From the NCBI GenBank assembly GCA_023264615.1, contig JAHFLU010000003.1:1-35970 (forward strand): a stretch of 35,970 nt of DNA, read 5' to 3'. Positions within the stretch are counted from its first letter, which is position 1, and the number at the start of each line of letters is the position of its first letter. A program made the translations under genes and the position numbers. This document shows positions 12,499 to 21,555 of this stretch, one piece after another. The notes under the pieces were generated by a model. That model made no database searches, was not told where the DNA came from, and saw only the letters and a list, made by a program, of their open reading frames with translations. Source of the DNA: a bacterium (lineage in GTDB: Bacteria; Patescibacteriota; Minisyncoccia; Phycocordibacterales; VMGT01).

Positions 12499-14772
12499 CA
12501 TTGAATAATTTTTCAATACATACCCCGCAGCGTATAGTACATCTTCCACACTGCACGCATCAAGGGCCTTCTTATGCTCACTATCTTCCCCGCGCGCTTT
12601 AAACACAAAACTCGATGGATAAAATGGCGCAGGAGGAGTGACACATATGCTTTTCTTATCATGGGGAGGCTGCTCCCATGGATCGACGGGTCCCGTAATA
12701 TCAACAACCGGTACTCCCAAAGCATGTGCAATATAGACTGGACCGGTGTCAACTGCAATATACAGCGTGAGGGATTTGATCAATGCAGACAGCTCTTCGA
12801 GGGTAAAATGGGTGGCAATACTGTGTTGTTCTCCCGAGTTTGGAAGTGTCGCAACAAGTGCTTCAATCCGGCTCCGATCCTTCGCTCCGCCAATCCAAAC
12901 AATTTTTCCACCATGTCTTTCAACAAGCTGTTTCCCAACCTCGCCAAATCGGGCATCTCCCCATTCCTTAATCTTGTTCCCTGCCGTAATGCTTATCCCA
13001 ATGATAACATCAGTGGGACGTACGCCCTGTTCTTCTAGAAACACGCGTATTTGTTCTTTGGTTTCAGGCTTCATGTATACTTCTTTTGCAGGATATATGC
13101 TCTGAATGCCAGCATATTTGAGCATTTCGAGGTAAAACGCGGGAGCAAATGTATGGTGTTCGTACAGAACGGGAACGTTGTTAAGCCAGTCTGTTGTACG
13201 CTCCGCGAGAAAGCGCGGAAAATAGACAAGCTTAATCCGCGTCGGTATAAAACTCCAAAAAAAGAGTGAGCTCGAAAAGGCTGTTCCCGAAAACGAAAGA
13301 CCAACATCAAAAGACTTTTTCTGCAACATTCGCACAAACCGAAAAAGATGAAACTTATAGTCCTCGAGTACAATGAGCTCATCAATATACGGATTCCCCG
13401 CAAGTACCCCACCGGCTTTGCGAGATACAAGAACCGCAATAAAACTGTCGGGGTATGTTTTCTTGATTGTATGAAACACCGGCGTCGTGCATACAATATC
13501 GCCAATACGCGTAAGCTGCGGCATAATAAAAAAACGCTGCGGCCCTTTCCTCTTTCTCCTCCCTGAACGAATTTTTGAAAATACAAACGGTGCAAAGAAA
13601 AATGATATGCAAGTAAGAAACCATGTAAGAAAGCGTATCCGGAAATCCATTGTTATTGACTTTCGTTTACGTATCGGTGTTCGCGCCACCCTTGTAAGAA
13701 TCTCAAGTGTTTCCTTGCCACAGGTATCCCATGAAAAACGTTGGAGCTGGGCGGGACCTTTTGTCACAATTCCCCTCCGAAATATTTCATCGGTTGTAAG
13801 CCTCTCCATCGCACCTGCGATTTCCTCCGCATGATACGGATCAACAAGGACAGCAGCACCGTTCCCCCCAAGTTCAGCAGGACCAAAAATATTGGATGTA
13901 ATAGCGGGGATACCGCACGAGAGCGCTTCAAGAATAGGAAATCCTGTACCTTCTACAATACTCGGAAAGACTAATGCTTCTGCACGCTTATATACATACG
14001 AAAGCTCCGGTTCGTTGAGATGTCCCAAGAAATGAACTCTGTCTTCAATTCTTTCTTTGTCGATATATTTCTTCAATGTTGCATAATATTCGCCTTCACT
14101 CTTCCCGCCAATAACAAGATCGTGTACGAAGTCAGTATTTGCCTTTACGCATAGATTGAACGCCTGCACAATACGCAAGACATTTTTTCGTTCTTTAAGA
14201 GTCCCCGCAAAAAAGAAATACTTTTGCGGAAGAGGGAGTGAGGGTGCACGTTCCAAAACTTCGCATATTTTTTTGTACCCGTGATACACGACAGAAATTT
14301 TTTCTGCGGGAATATCGAAAAACCGCACTGTGTCGTTCTTTGTCGAATTTGACACCGCAATAATTTGATCGGCTCGGTGCATCGAATACCCGTGGTACCA
14401 GCCAATAAGAATACGTTTCAGGCGTTCGGAAAAATTCCGTGGTGCAAGATATTTATACGGATAATCAAGCGCTATGATGACGGACCGGCGTGGCTTAAAA
14501 AAGAGCGGTAGAACAGGCGTATTAAAAAGATATACATCGCAGGGGGTGGCGTACTTGAGGCGTGTCAGCCAGAGTCTTCCTGTTCCAAGTATTTCAGTAT
14601 GCCAATTTTTGCCTGGTAAATCCGGTTCTTGTTCCGGTTTTTCCTTAAGAAAAATCACGTACTCATTCTCCCTATCATTTTGCATCAGTGACTCCGCCCA
14701 ACCAAAAATAATCCTCGGAAGGCCACCGGGCTTTTTCTCACCGTACGGATGCATGATGATCCCTATTTTCAT
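12496..14772 (-). CDS. Bifunctional GT4-GT9 fusion: N-terminal GT4 glycosyltransferase, C-terminal heptosyltransferase-like GT9
   Basis: N-terminal MKIGIIMHPYGEKKPGGLPRI...VFPSIVEGTGFPILEALSCGIPAITS; linker FLTWFLTCISFFFAPFVF; C-terminal RIGDIVCTTPVFHTIKKTYPDS...VDTGPVYIAHALGVPVVDITGPVDP. ATG at 14772 overlaps the upstream TGA (ATGA). Confidence 0.88.
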   Translation of the reverse strand: MKIGIIMHPYGEKKPGGLPRIIFGWAESLMQNDRENEYVIFLKEKPEQEPDLPGKNWHTEILGTGRLWLTRLKYATPCDVYLFNTPVLPLFFKPRRSVIIALDYPYKYLAPRNFSERLKRILIGWYHGYSMHRADQIIAVSNSTKNDTVRFFDIPAEKISVVYHGYKKICEVLERAPSLPLPQKYFFFAGTLKERKNVLRIVQAFNLCVKANTDFVHDLVIGGKSEGEYYATLKKYIDKERIEDRVHFLGHLNEPELSYVYKRAEALVFPSIVEGTGFPILEALSCGIPAITSNIFGPAELGGNGAAVLVDPYHAEEIAGAMERLTTDEIFRRGIVTKGPAQLQRFSWDTCGKETLEILTRVARTPIRKRKSITMDFRIRFLTWFLTCISFFFAPFVFSKIRSGRRKRKGPQRFFIMPQLTRIGDIVCTTPVFHTIKKTYPDSFIAVLVSRKAGGVLAGNPYIDELIVLEDYKFHLFRFVRMLQKKSFDVGLSFSGTAFSSSLFFWSFIPTRIKLVYFPRFLAERTTDWLNNVPVLYEHHTFAPAFYLEMLKYAGIQSIYPAKEVYMKPETKEQIRVFLEEQGVRPTDVIIGISITAGNKIKEWGDARFGEVGKQLVERHGGKIVWIGGAKDRSRIEALVATLPNSGEQHSIATHFTLEELSALIKSLTLYIAVDTGPVYIAHALGVPVVDITGPVDPWEQPPHDKKSICVTPPAPFYPSSFVFKARGEDSEHKKALDACSVEDVLYAAGYVLKNYSM

Positions 14773-15899
14773 GAGCGTGTTGAGATGAATTGAATGATAC
14801 TTTTCGTTCTTTCCTCCCATGTATACTCTTTTGCTTTTTCTTTCCCGTACACAATTCGCTTCCGCACAGCATCTCCCTCCATCGATTCTTTAATTGCAAA
14901 AGCGAGCGCATGCGGATCGTCCGGTTCATAAAAGCACACTTCCCGCTCCGTAACGACCTCACGATTCGCGAGTGTACTACTCACAACCATCGGACGTAGA
15001 GATGCAAGAAATTCAAATATCTTCATCGGCGATGTCTCGGTATATGAATACTGATTCGATTTTGTCCCCAGTACAAGCACGACATCCGCAGCCGAAACCC
15101 ACGACGGAACATCTCGGAAAGGTTTATGTCCGACACAGACAACATTTTCAGGTATTTTTTGTACCCCCGTTGCCATGCGGAATCCTTCCTCTGTCCCGCC
15201 CACCATATAAAACAATATCTCCGGGAGCATCGCTGCCGTTTGAGCGATAATCCCTAAACCTTTCCAGTCATAAAACTGTCCTGTATGTACGGCAACCACG
15301 CGCTCTAGAGAAAGTCCGAGGGCCATGCGGGCTTCCCTTTTCGACAAACGAGAAGGAAACAATTTTGGATCGATACCATTCGGTGCCGTTATACTCTTTT
15401 CTTGCGGAATACGAAAATCTGCACGAAACCGCGCAGCAACAGCGCGGCTGTTCGTTATAATGCCCCGCACACGTCTGACAAAAAAAGAGAGCATGGGACT
15501 TTTCCTCTTGCTCCCATGTACTTCAAAAAATACAGGCACAGAAAGAAGCGGGAGAAGAAAAAAAGAAAATTGATCAAGATCAATCGTATATACTATTGCT
15601 TTTTCTCTACGAACTTTGAAAAAAAGATACAGAAACGATGTGATGCAAAAAGAGAGAGACTTCAGGTTGAACGCAATGCCGCTCTTTCCACAGAGAAGAA
15701 CCGGTACTCGGCGAATGGGTATATTTTCCTCAAGCGCATAGAAATCTTCGATGGAGTCGCAGAGCGGATTATGCTGTCGGGGCAGAATCAATTCAAGATC
15801 AATACCTGCTGCAACAAAAGCCTCGCATTGTTTTGCGAGTTGGATTCCATGTGCTTTTTCGTTCGGCATCCGTGCGTTGGCAACGTAGTACATCTTCAT
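14769..15899 (-). CDS. GT4-family glycosyltransferase
   Basis: MKMYYVANARMPNEKAHGIQLAKQCEAF...; C-terminal SYTETSPMKIFEFLASLRPMVVSS. Start chosen at MKMYYV; the ORF track uses TTG at 15920. Confidence 0.82.
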   Translation of the reverse strand: MKMYYVANARMPNEKAHGIQLAKQCEAFVAAGIDLELILPRQHNPLCDSIEDFYALEENIPIRRVPVLLCGKSGIAFNLKSLSFCITSFLYLFFKVRREKAIVYTIDLDQFSFFLLPLLSVPVFFEVHGSKRKSPMLSFFVRRVRGIITNSRAVAARFRADFRIPQEKSITAPNGIDPKLFPSRLSKREARMALGLSLERVVAVHTGQFYDWKGLGIIAQTAAMLPEILFYMVGGTEEGFRMATGVQKIPENVVCVGHKPFRDVPSWVSAADVVLVLGTKSNQYSYTETSPMKIFEFLASLRPMVVSSTLANREVVTEREVCFYEPDDPHALAFAIKESMEGDAVRKRIVYGKEKAKEYTWEERTKSIIQFISTRS

Positions 15900-15978
15900 A
15901 TGCCTTGTTTCTTGCAACACTATATCATAGCAAAAAGTGACCCCAGAGAGAGCTCCAAGTACCTACGTTATCAATATT

Positions 15979-16071
15979 GCGATCATGGTAGCATAGTGGC
16001 TTTTTAGACAGTAAGGCTTGGCCTAGCCGCCTCGAGCGCTGTCTAAAAAGCCACTATGCTACCATGATCGC
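15979..16071. repeat. Perfect 33-bp inverted repeat with 27-bp spacer
   Basis: GCGATCATGGTAGCATAGTGGCTTTTTAGACAG (15979-16011) is exactly the reverse complement of CTGTCTAAAAAGCCACTATGCTACCATGATCGC (16039-16071). Confidence 0.95.
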
Positions 16072-16104: not shown

Positions 16105-17196
16105 CTAGAAGAGACCCATAAATTCCTCCAAAATAAGGGTCTGGTCATATTTTCTTACATGGGTGCGCACAATTTCAGATACCTCTCTTCGCTTCTCATC
16201 TCTGTCGAGAAGCTCGCGAACACGTTCTGAAAAACCTGCAATGTCCGCGCTTGTAACACAATATTGCTGCAGCACAAACGGCACAATATCACGAACACCA
16301 CCGACAGAAAATGCCACAAACGGCACGCCCGCAGCCATCGCTTCGAGGAGCACATGAGGGAAACCCTCCTCTTCTGAAGGCATGATAAAAACATCAGCAG
16401 CAAAAAAATACGATGCGATATCGCGATGCGAAATTCCGCCGAGCATGAGAATTCTCTCCGTTAATCCATGTTTTTCTATGTCATTCCGAATATTCTGAGA
16501 GAGGGGGCCGTCACCAATGATAACGAAAAGTGCAGTCGGGTCAGATACTGTTTCTGCAATCTCTACTATTTTGTCGACACCTTTCCTCTCCGAAAGATGG
16601 TGTACAAAAAGAACAATTTTTTTATCATACGGAAGGTTGAGTTTTTCCCGCACCTCTCGCTTTGTGCCATCATTCTTCCATGCAGAAATATCAATCCAAT
16701 TTGGCACCACGGTAATCTTCATCGGTGAGATCGAATACTCCTCTGCATACAATTGCCGCATCGTTTCAGTACCCGTCACCAACGTATTCACCATGTGCAA
16801 AACAAAACGCAAGGAAATTTGTTTTCCATACAGCCACGGCATGCCACAGTTCCAGTAATATGCTCTACCTTTCGTAAGACGCGCAACCAAAGACGATGTC
16901 AGTGCTCCTGTATAGGAATAGTGGGTATAGAAAATACGATACCCACGTCTTCGCGCCTCTACCAACACCATCAGTTCGCGAAGAATGCGCAACGGAAGAA
17001 AACGGACGCGCAACCTTTTTATGTACGCTACCCCCGGAAACCGGCTTTGAGAAGGATTTCCCTTTTCAACGACAAGAAAAACTTCGCTTTCTTTAGAAAG
17101 CGCATTAATGAAATCATATAGATACGCAAAATGCGTGTCAGTTCCCTCACGAAATTCCGGCAGGATGTAGCAGATTTTTTTCCTACTTTTTGACAT
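16105..17196 (-). CDS. GT4-family glycosyltransferase
   Basis: MSKSRKKICYILPEFREGTDTHFAYL...; HHLSERKGVDKIVEIAE; MPSEEEGFPHVLLEAMAAGVPFVAFSVGG. ORF track extends to 17409; internal ATG at 17196 fits operon spacing. Confidence 0.87.
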   Translation of the reverse strand: MSKSRKKICYILPEFREGTDTHFAYLYDFINALSKESEVFLVVEKGNPSQSRFPGVAYIKRLRVRFLPLRILRELMVLVEARRRGYRIFYTHYSYTGALTSSLVARLTKGRAYYWNCGMPWLYGKQISLRFVLHMVNTLVTGTETMRQLYAEEYSISPMKITVVPNWIDISAWKNDGTKREVREKLNLPYDKKIVLFVHHLSERKGVDKIVEIAETVSDPTALFVIIGDGPLSQNIRNDIEKHGLTERILMLGGISHRDIASYFFAADVFIMPSEEEGFPHVLLEAMAAGVPFVAFSVGGVRDIVPFVLQQYCVTSADIAGFSERVRELLDRDEKRREVSEIVRTHVRKYDQTLILEEFMGLF

Positions 17197-18043
17197 GTGC
17201 TTTAATCCGCTCTCCGTATGTCTCGCGAAGCAAATCGAGATCTTTGCTGCTCTCGAGGAGAAGTTCGATATTTTTCTCACGCAGACTCTTGAGAACAGCC
17301 TGTCCAAGCGGATCGGCAACGACACTCTTATATATCTCCTCAAATGCGGCAAAATCTTTAATGAAACAGTGTCCCCCTGCTCCCCGCCCGCTTTTGTGTA
17401 CTGGATCAAGGTGTGTCCTCCCTATACGCGGATCTGCCGCCATTGCATCGCGAACCACTTCAAAGCTGCAGCCAAGTTCCTGCGAAAGATCATACAGCAA
17501 GTTTACAAAAACGACTTTTGTAAAGAACCAACAGTTGCCGGAATATTTGATCACCTCTGCTTCCCGTGCAGAGCAAATTTTTTCAAACGGTGCTTTTGGT
17601 AATACATCAATTACCTCTTGTGCACGCATACGCGCCTCTCCCGTATCGTTTGGAATGCCAACAATATTACGATCCGGATGTGCTGCATCGTGTGCAGCAG
17701 TAACTTCAGTCAGAAACTCGGGAGAATGAAAAACAAAAACACTGGGAAACTCTTTCTGAATTGATTCTGTTGTTCCCGGAAGAATCGTTGATTTGATAAC
17801 CGCAGTACTCTCTTTTCTAATAAGCGGTATCACAGAACGAACAATGGAGTCGTCAAATCCCTTTTGTGTTGTCGGTGTCGGCACCGCAATGAAAACAATA
17901 TCGCACTCGCTTATGCGCTCTTTGTTTCCAGAGTATGCATTCTCTCGAGAATAGCGGACGACAGAAAAACCACGCTTTTCAAAATCATCCGCGTAATTCT
18001 TCCCAATCCATCCTTGTCCGATGAAACCAATTTTTTTTGCCAT
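17183..18043 (-). CDS. UDP-glucose/GDP-mannose dehydrogenase family protein lacking the C-terminal domain
   Basis: KKIGFIGQGWIGKNYADDFEKRGF Rossmann motif; FHSPEFLTEVTA; SGRGAGGHCFIKDF with catalytic-type Cys; ends at 286 aa. Confidence 0.82.
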   Translation of the reverse strand: MAKKIGFIGQGWIGKNYADDFEKRGFSVVRYSRENAYSGNKERISECDIVFIAVPTPTTQKGFDDSIVRSVIPLIRKESTAVIKSTILPGTTESIQKEFPSVFVFHSPEFLTEVTAAHDAAHPDRNIVGIPNDTGEARMRAQEVIDVLPKAPFEKICSAREAEVIKYSGNCWFFTKVVFVNLLYDLSQELGCSFEVVRDAMAADPRIGRTHLDPVHKSGRGAGGHCFIKDFAAFEEIYKSVVADPLGQAVLKSLREKNIELLLESSKDLDLLRETYGERIKAHVKK

Positions 18044-20374: not shown

Positions 20375-21555
20375 CAAATTTTAAATACGTGTGCTTTCAT
20401 CTGCTTAACGATCGTCGACCAGTCATACCGCAAAATAACATAACTTCGTGCGGTAGCGATAATATGCAGACGAACTGCATCATTCTCAAGAAGCATCTGA
20501 ATTTTCTCTGCCAAATCTTTCGGATCGTTCACCTTACATAATACCCCTGTTTCACCGTCCTTCAAAAAATCAGTGATTCCGCCAACACCCGTCGTAATGA
20601 CCGGCACGCCCGCAGCCATCGCTTCAATAAACGACGAACCCATGCCTTCTGAACGGGACGGTCTGATAAAAATGTCAGAAACAGCAAGATATCGAGGAAC
20701 TTCGGAAATATCTTTGTGTCCGACAAAATGTACGCGCTTTGCTACCTCTTCACTTTCTGTCAAACCGAGAAGCATCTTTTTATCCGGACCATCCCCCACA
20801 ACAATAAGCTCAATATTTTCGGGAACATATTTGAGTGCCATAATGAGAATATCCACTGCGTTTTTGGGTACCAGACGCGATGTCGTCACCAAATAGCGCG
20901 TTTCATGCCGCGCACCAAGAGATTCCGCAAGAGAAATAAGGTCGCCGTCGCTGTACTCTCGAGTAAATTGTTCGAGAGCAACACCATTCGGAATAATCAC
21001 AATAGGACGAGTTGCACCCATACCCCGCGCGAACGATGCCAAAAAACGTGAGATCGTTTGAATAATATCGGCTTTTTTAAAAATAAGCGCGTAAAGCGGA
21101 AAAATGAGCCGGATACGCCATCGCTGCGTAATATGCCCGATCGAATCTCCTTCTTGAAGTGTCAGGATATACGGTATTCCCCGCAGAAAACGCAGAAAGA
21201 GTGCCGGAAACCCGGCATACGACATGATCGCCCACGAAGCCTCATACCTATTTTTCATAGAAAGCCCGAAAGCTTTGAAAAACGCAAGGACCGGATATAT
21301 TACTTTTATAAGGTACACTGGAAACGAAACCAACTCTTCGGGAGTTGGGTCTTTTTTTGAAAGGCCAACACGATAGACGGTCACATTCCCAATACGTTCT
21401 ACTTTCGGCAGATTTCGATCGTGCCGAAGCGTTACCATGTCAAATTCTATCTCACCCCTGCTCACCCGATCCGTTATTTCTTTTACAGCAATTTCGGCCC
21501 CGCCAACGAGCGGGTAGTACATGAGAGAGAATATAAGCACCCGTTTTTTTGCCAT
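20374..21555 (-). CDS. GT4-family glycosyltransferase
   Basis: VLIFSLMYYPLVGGAEIAVKEI; VTTSRLVPKNAVDILI; RPSRSEGMGSSFIEAMAAGVPVITTGVGG. Confidence 0.88.
   Translation of the reverse strand: MAKKRVLIFSLMYYPLVGGAEIAVKEITDRVSRGEIEFDMVTLRHDRNLPKVERIGNVTVYRVGLSKKDPTPEELVSFPVYLIKVIYPVLAFFKAFGLSMKNRYEASWAIMSYAGFPALFLRFLRGIPYILTLQEGDSIGHITQRWRIRLIFPLYALIFKKADIIQTISRFLASFARGMGATRPIVIIPNGVALEQFTREYSDGDLISLAESLGARHETRYLVTTSRLVPKNAVDILIMALKYVPENIELIVVGDGPDKKMLLGLTESEEVAKRVHFVGHKDISEVPRYLAVSDIFIRPSRSEGMGSSFIEAMAAGVPVITTGVGGITDFLKDGETGVLCKVNDPKDLAEKIQMLLENDAVRLHIIATARSYVILRYDWSTIVKQMKAHVFKI

Follow-up and report, generated by a model that had tools for sequence, protein, structure and literature searches.

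A dispersed palindromic DNA element of Patescibacteria with a conserved core and arms that mirror flanking sequence

How does a bacterial genome come to hold two 33-nt arms that are complementary at every position, and what keeps them so? The question is raised by an inverted repeat between two glycosyltransferase genes in the stretch of Patescibacterial DNA analysed here (the window, 35,970 nt), which belongs to a genome of 1.03 Mb in 83 contigs that is 94% complete (G000). By following this repeat into other genomes, we define an apparently undescribed, dispersed and non-autonomous DNA element in a large and poorly known bacterial division, and show a route by which long perfect palindromes can arise in Patescibacteria.

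A conserved core within a perfect hairpin

The initial annotation described a perfect 33-bp inverted repeat around a 27-bp spacer, placed between glycosyltransferase genes and with no T-tract on either side, and both descriptions hold at 15979–16071 (Table 1). The arms are 100% complementary over 33 nt without a mismatch, and no other inverted pair in the 36-kb window has arms that are both close together and perfect. A search of the repeat and its flanks found no T-tract after either arm, the mark expected of an intrinsic terminator. Both neighbouring genes lie on the minus strand and carry GT4-type Pfam domains. As RNA, the copy is predicted to fold at −73.9 kcal/mol (z = −11.6 relative to shuffled sequences), with a similar result for the other strand. 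The smaller hairpin proposed within the spacer does exist, but its assignment as GGCT..AGCC gives way to GGCC-TAGC-GGCC in the comparative fold, which in the window copy reads GGCC-TAGC-CGCC. Elsewhere in the window, a 24-nt exact direct repeat (16321–16344 and 20602–20625) occurs in two genes of the glycosyltransferase cluster, 4.3 kb apart, and represents either a conserved motif or gene conversion.

Table 1 Features of the window copy and its neighbours (positions in the window)
Feature	Position	Strand	Remarks
Left arm	15979–16011	+	33 nt; from inverted-repeat search
Inner part of left arm, TTTTTAGACAG			like other copies in this genome; outer ~22 nt copy-specific
Conserved core, TAAGGCTTGGCCTAGCCGCCTCGAGCG	16012–16038	+	27 nt; diagnostic part of the family
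Apical stem-loop, GGCC-TAGC-CGCC	16020–16031	+
Right arm	16039–16071	+	33 nt; exact reverse complement of left arm
Span under covariance model R1	16000–16050	+	65.3 bits, E = 7.6e-15; window copy itself among the model-building sequences
Upstream glycosyltransferase gene	16105–17409	−	stop 34 nt from the element
Downstream glycosyltransferase gene	14769–15920	−

Searching the genome with the arms, as the initial annotation had advised, or with the whole element recovered just one further copy, the one with the closest core. Its layout is again 33-27-33, but its arms differ, and its spacer (TAAGACTTGGCCTAGCGGCCTGGAGCG) is similar to that of the window copy (TAAGGCTTGGCCTAGCCGCCTCGAGCG). Arm queries would miss the family, since the arms are specific to each copy; what is conserved is the spacer with about 6 bp of stem, arms excluded. 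A scan of 264 Gb of GTDB genomes with the pattern CTTGGCCTAGCNGCCTNGAGC, for which we estimate roughly 2 chance matches under uniform base composition, gave 16 contigs, every one of them Patescibacterial, which span Saccharibacteria to Kaiserbacteria and Adlerbacteria. A covariance model (R1) built from the core and 12 bp of stem matched 19 of 297 genomes from the window's order, in a search whose strict filters may undercount, and 6 of 382 genomes drawn across the phylum, three of which fall outside that order.

Copy numbers in these draft, mostly metagenomic genomes range from 1 to at least 38 (G075, 0.7 Mb), with 6 in the window genome, 7 in G204 and at least 19 in G051, and most copies lie in intergenic DNA close to the 3' ends of genes. 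There are two main versions of the core, with either GGCC...GGCC or GGGC...GCCC in the apical stem; the change between them is compensatory (columns 24–36: CG 39, GC 37), and the folded core is therefore under constraint. When the window was searched against Rfam 15, a tRNA was the sole match above the gathering threshold and none covered the element, whereas microRNA models matched the long hairpin of the second copy below threshold. The window copy had no match in phage records and the second copy none in plasmid records, and we found no account of such an element in the open-access literature.

Two further structures were seen in carrier genomes. A longer form of the element, of about 145 nt, is common to two unrelated genomic places in the sister species G079 (L050, near 1400–1655) and G140 (L049, near 430–690), and its foot, TGARTTRCGAAA, resembles a terminal inverted repeat. 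In the window genome, a 50-bp perfect palindrome with neither spacer nor core (L008:10445–10494, contig C49) lies about 2.2 kb from the second copy.

Arms templated on native flanks

Over positions 7–30 from the core, arms are 44% identical between copies in the window genome and 36% in G075, as against 100% and 98.6% within a copy. Across 68 copies, 1,494 of the 1,549 arm pairs are Watson–Crick, 23 are G-U and 32 are of other kinds, so that G-U pairs (1.5%) do not exceed the remaining non-Watson–Crick pairs. G-U pairs should be frequent if RNA pairing were under selection, whereas a DNA arm copied from the other arm leaves none. Since the arms differ between copies, match within each copy and are almost without G-U, one arm has been templated on the other, and strong apparent covariation in a hairpin can stem from such DNA templating and not from RNA function. 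Outer ends are copy-specific in all three genomes compared (G000, G051 and G075). In G075, conserved bases are limited to the innermost stem, GAGA[C/G], and the left arm is A/C-rich regardless of the side on which the gene lies.

Where the arm sequence comes from is revealed by comparing G051 with the same-genus genome G120. Leaving out the query site L167, the element is absent from G120 at 2 sites of one locus and at 9 further sites that we recovered, and gene order is uninterrupted there at 10 of the 11 compared sites, for example between what we take, from the translated sequences, to be rpoC and dnaG and tpiA and pgk. At the counterpart of G051 C1:39058, G120 has a bidirectional terminator hairpin in place of the element. 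The A/T tracts of this terminator are also mirrored (GAAAAAATAAAAGGCCGGC ... GCCGGCCTTTTATTTTTTC), which suggests that arm templating acts on ordinary terminators too. Inspection of the G051/G120 sites by eye for the target-site duplications expected of a MITE showed no consistent direct repeat, in species rather too diverged for such a comparison.

A short way behind the unit in G051, the end of the gene on its other side recurs in inverted form. In two clear cases, AAATATT at the ...RKY* end and AATAAGTAA at the ...PNK* end, each the same in both genomes, are native in G120 and mirrored in G051. Left flanks in G051 match the inverted right flank of their own copy better than those of other copies (0 of 2,000 permutations reach the observed sum), and in G075 a comparison of own with swapped outer flanks beyond the first 30 bp gave 0 of 5,000. 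In G075, the C-terminal coding end of topoisomerase I (TopA), PNHNPHKL, is identical to that of G051; its mirror image in non-coding DNA extends over 71 nt, of which 61 are identical and the rest have decayed. Whereas TopA is a native gene left of the core, the genes ending in RVKAS* and AMGQFNQN* are native on its right; as all three ends are mirrored to the far side, copying runs from coding sequence to copy and the native side may be either. A rule by which the left arm is always native was therefore dropped.

At the family level, then, the outer arms are inverted copies of native adjacent DNA, as seen from these gene ends and from the permutations, and elements are gained or lost at orthologous sites. 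For the window copy, the matching intergenic region of G001 is rearranged and has an extra ORF, and the native arm is not identifiable from it. That the repeat might be a mobile palindromic element is borne out by its 6 copies in this genome, by at least 38 in another and by presence and absence at orthologous sites, and the argument from perfect identity to a recent origin or to active maintenance is likewise supported.

Orientation adds to this picture. In tandem gene pairs, the core runs along the genes in 28 cases and against them in 21, counts that rest on a simple longest-ORF gene choice and of which single entries may be wrong. Two Saccharibacteria share an orthologous site (L019 and L033, with flanks 72% identical) at which their cores point in opposite directions, and the arms, though different in sequence, stay paired. 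Both inversion of the spacer and homogenisation of the arms are known products of template switching between inverted repeats (PMC8604942). Of two further suggestions in the initial annotation, an inversion site is matched by this one case, although no recombinase was found, and an RNA processing signal that splits the glycosyltransferase operon is disfavoured by a core that faces either way and by arms almost without G-U.

How the palindromes may arise

We favour, with a probability of about 0.6, a non-autonomous mobile hairpin that enters DNA just 3' of genes and, either on insertion or afterwards, copies the flanking strand by a snap-back reaction. The inserting unit would be the 27-nt apical core with a short stem, entering intergenic DNA in either orientation and usually just behind a stop codon. 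Once linked to a 3' end of the flanking DNA, the unit would fold back on itself, and its own 3' end, held by the conserved inner stem, would prime DNA synthesis, such that a polymerase copies the unit's 5' arm and runs on into the flanking strand. The product would be flank, unit and reverse complement of flank. Downstream, the new strand would return to the original sequence, perhaps where the two share short homologies; at L186, copied sequence and pgk end join in a GAAAAA(A/T)TAA-like stretch. An enzyme that recognises the folded core would presumably be involved. We infer that copying takes place at insertion and not later, a one-step product that is read from species at roughly 65–80% identity. 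The inner arms of G075, which differ between copies while staying perfect, would be explained equally well by later arm correction. A more specific form of the proposal, in which a single-stranded hairpin joins the target's 3' end, primes itself and remakes perfect, target-derived arms at each insertion, with the folded core as the recognition site of a dedicated Patescibacterial enzyme, is possible but on the whole rather doubtful.

Two candidate mobilisers were considered, of which the first is disfavoured. Y1/RAYT transposases (PF01797) were not found in the multi-copy carriers G000 (6 copies), G075 (at least 38) and G204 (7), whereas they occur in many genomes without the element. A reverse transcriptase scored above cut-off in 8 of 14 carriers compared to 1 of 9 non-carriers, a weak and incomplete association, as none was found in the multi-copy carriers G000, G127 and G239, and the enzyme of G051 looks like that of a diversity-generating retroelement. 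Immediately upstream of secA, that locus (L131:13506–15998) encodes the reverse transcriptase, of 331 aa, and has an A-rich repeat that resembles a template as well as a variable region at a C-terminus (RGRGSRRNLDLRWFDHGW). No mobilising enzyme was identified in the genomes examined for these two activities. SbcD, part of a nuclease known to cut long hairpins, scored above cut-off in 1 of the 23 carrier and non-carrier genomes tested; its absence would let long palindromes persist and does not account for their origin.

In the main alternative, the same copying chemistry acts at another time. If a short unit inserted by an unrelated route and its stem were perfected and lengthened afterwards by replication template switching (quasipalindrome correction), timing alone would differ from copying linked to insertion. 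Arm homogenisation and spacer inversion, both signatures of template switching (PMC8604942), are seen, the perfect but divergent inner arms of G075 fit, and with SbcD below cut-off in 22 of 23 genomes long hairpins may persist. In G051, however, most copies have one and the same bulge and internal loop in their inner stem, whereas their outer arms are specific to each copy; this argues against a general later correction of that stem, and copied flanks of at most about 40 nt that begin beside the unit better fit one synthesis tract. We regard such later growth as unlikely, if still to be reckoned with. The idea that the unit inserts into the loop of older long hairpins, whose outer arms would predate it, takes its example from the bidirectional terminator at the G120 counterpart of C1:39058, but it is very improbable, as nearly all element-free G120 sites that were compared are without a long hairpin and the mirrored segments hold stop codons and conserved codons, unlike native terminators.

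A functional RNA (a terminator, a 3'-end stabiliser or a long double-stranded RNA), with arm pairing kept by selection on the transcript, would account for sites near gene 3' ends, for the very stable hairpins with strong apparent covariation and for a bidirectional terminator that replaces the element at one orthologous G120 site. It is nonetheless improbable given a core that faces both ways (28 versus 21) and is inverted between L019 and L033, G-U pairs at 1.5% of arm pairs, the missing T-tract, the absence of the element from most of the compared orthologous sites and the lack of an Rfam family at gathering score. Finally, whole-genome amplification makes inverted chimeras, and fold-back products of amplification or assembly could resemble single copies. 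For the family this explanation is already refuted and its likelihood negligible: the core is conserved over independent projects and lineages, an orthologous copy occurs in two same-genus genomes at about 90% identity, and native sequence carries on past the element.

Comparison with known systems

Several known systems resemble the element in part. Like REP/REPIN sequences mobilised by RAYTs, it is a short, extragenic, palindromic, dispersed and non-autonomous repeat, with many copies near gene 3' ends, but here the loop is conserved and the arms are copy-specific (between-copy identity 0.36–0.44), no Y1 transposase is consistently present and no GTAG/CGTC foot was seen outside the stem. G051 also carries a second repeat family (L132:12724–12786, L117:13636–13697, L137:5956–6017 and others) that resembles REPIN doublets: the palindrome TGCAGAGGTCAGACCTCTGCA or AATATCGAAGTCTGACTTCGATATT occurs in two inverted copies separated by a short spacer of variable sequence, and in some cases complementarity extends a further 3–6 nt into flanks that are specific to the copy.

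MITEs and Rickettsia palindromic elements are small, non-autonomous, interspersed and palindromic, features that the present element shares with them; it differs in that the copies of a genome have no terminal inverted repeat in common (none in G000, G051 or G075, with the longer shared form in G079/G140) and in that its ends are target-derived. Integron attC sites are recognised through a folded single strand and require R'/R'' boxes at the foot, a cassette array and an integrase. Arms of variable sequence and, as proposed here, recognition of a single-strand fold are common to both, whereas here the tip is conserved and the copies are dispersed.

Mutually templated perfect arms and spacer inversion are shared with quasipalindrome correction and template-switch hairpins in E. 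coli and yeast (PMC8604942), which act on existing sequence and have no conserved core recurring at dozens of sites. In a 2026 survey, Ca. Campbellbacteria and Kaiserbacteria are the richest in perfect inverted repeats, and the passages concerned give neither a family nor a mechanism for them (PMC13155455). A Kaiserbacteria genome of the window's order carries the element (nzgw458; L031, identical to L075 of G239), and the elements described here may be a small part of that inverted-repeat density. Should the unit insert and copy its flank in a single event, the element would move by a mechanism unlike the known classes of transposition.
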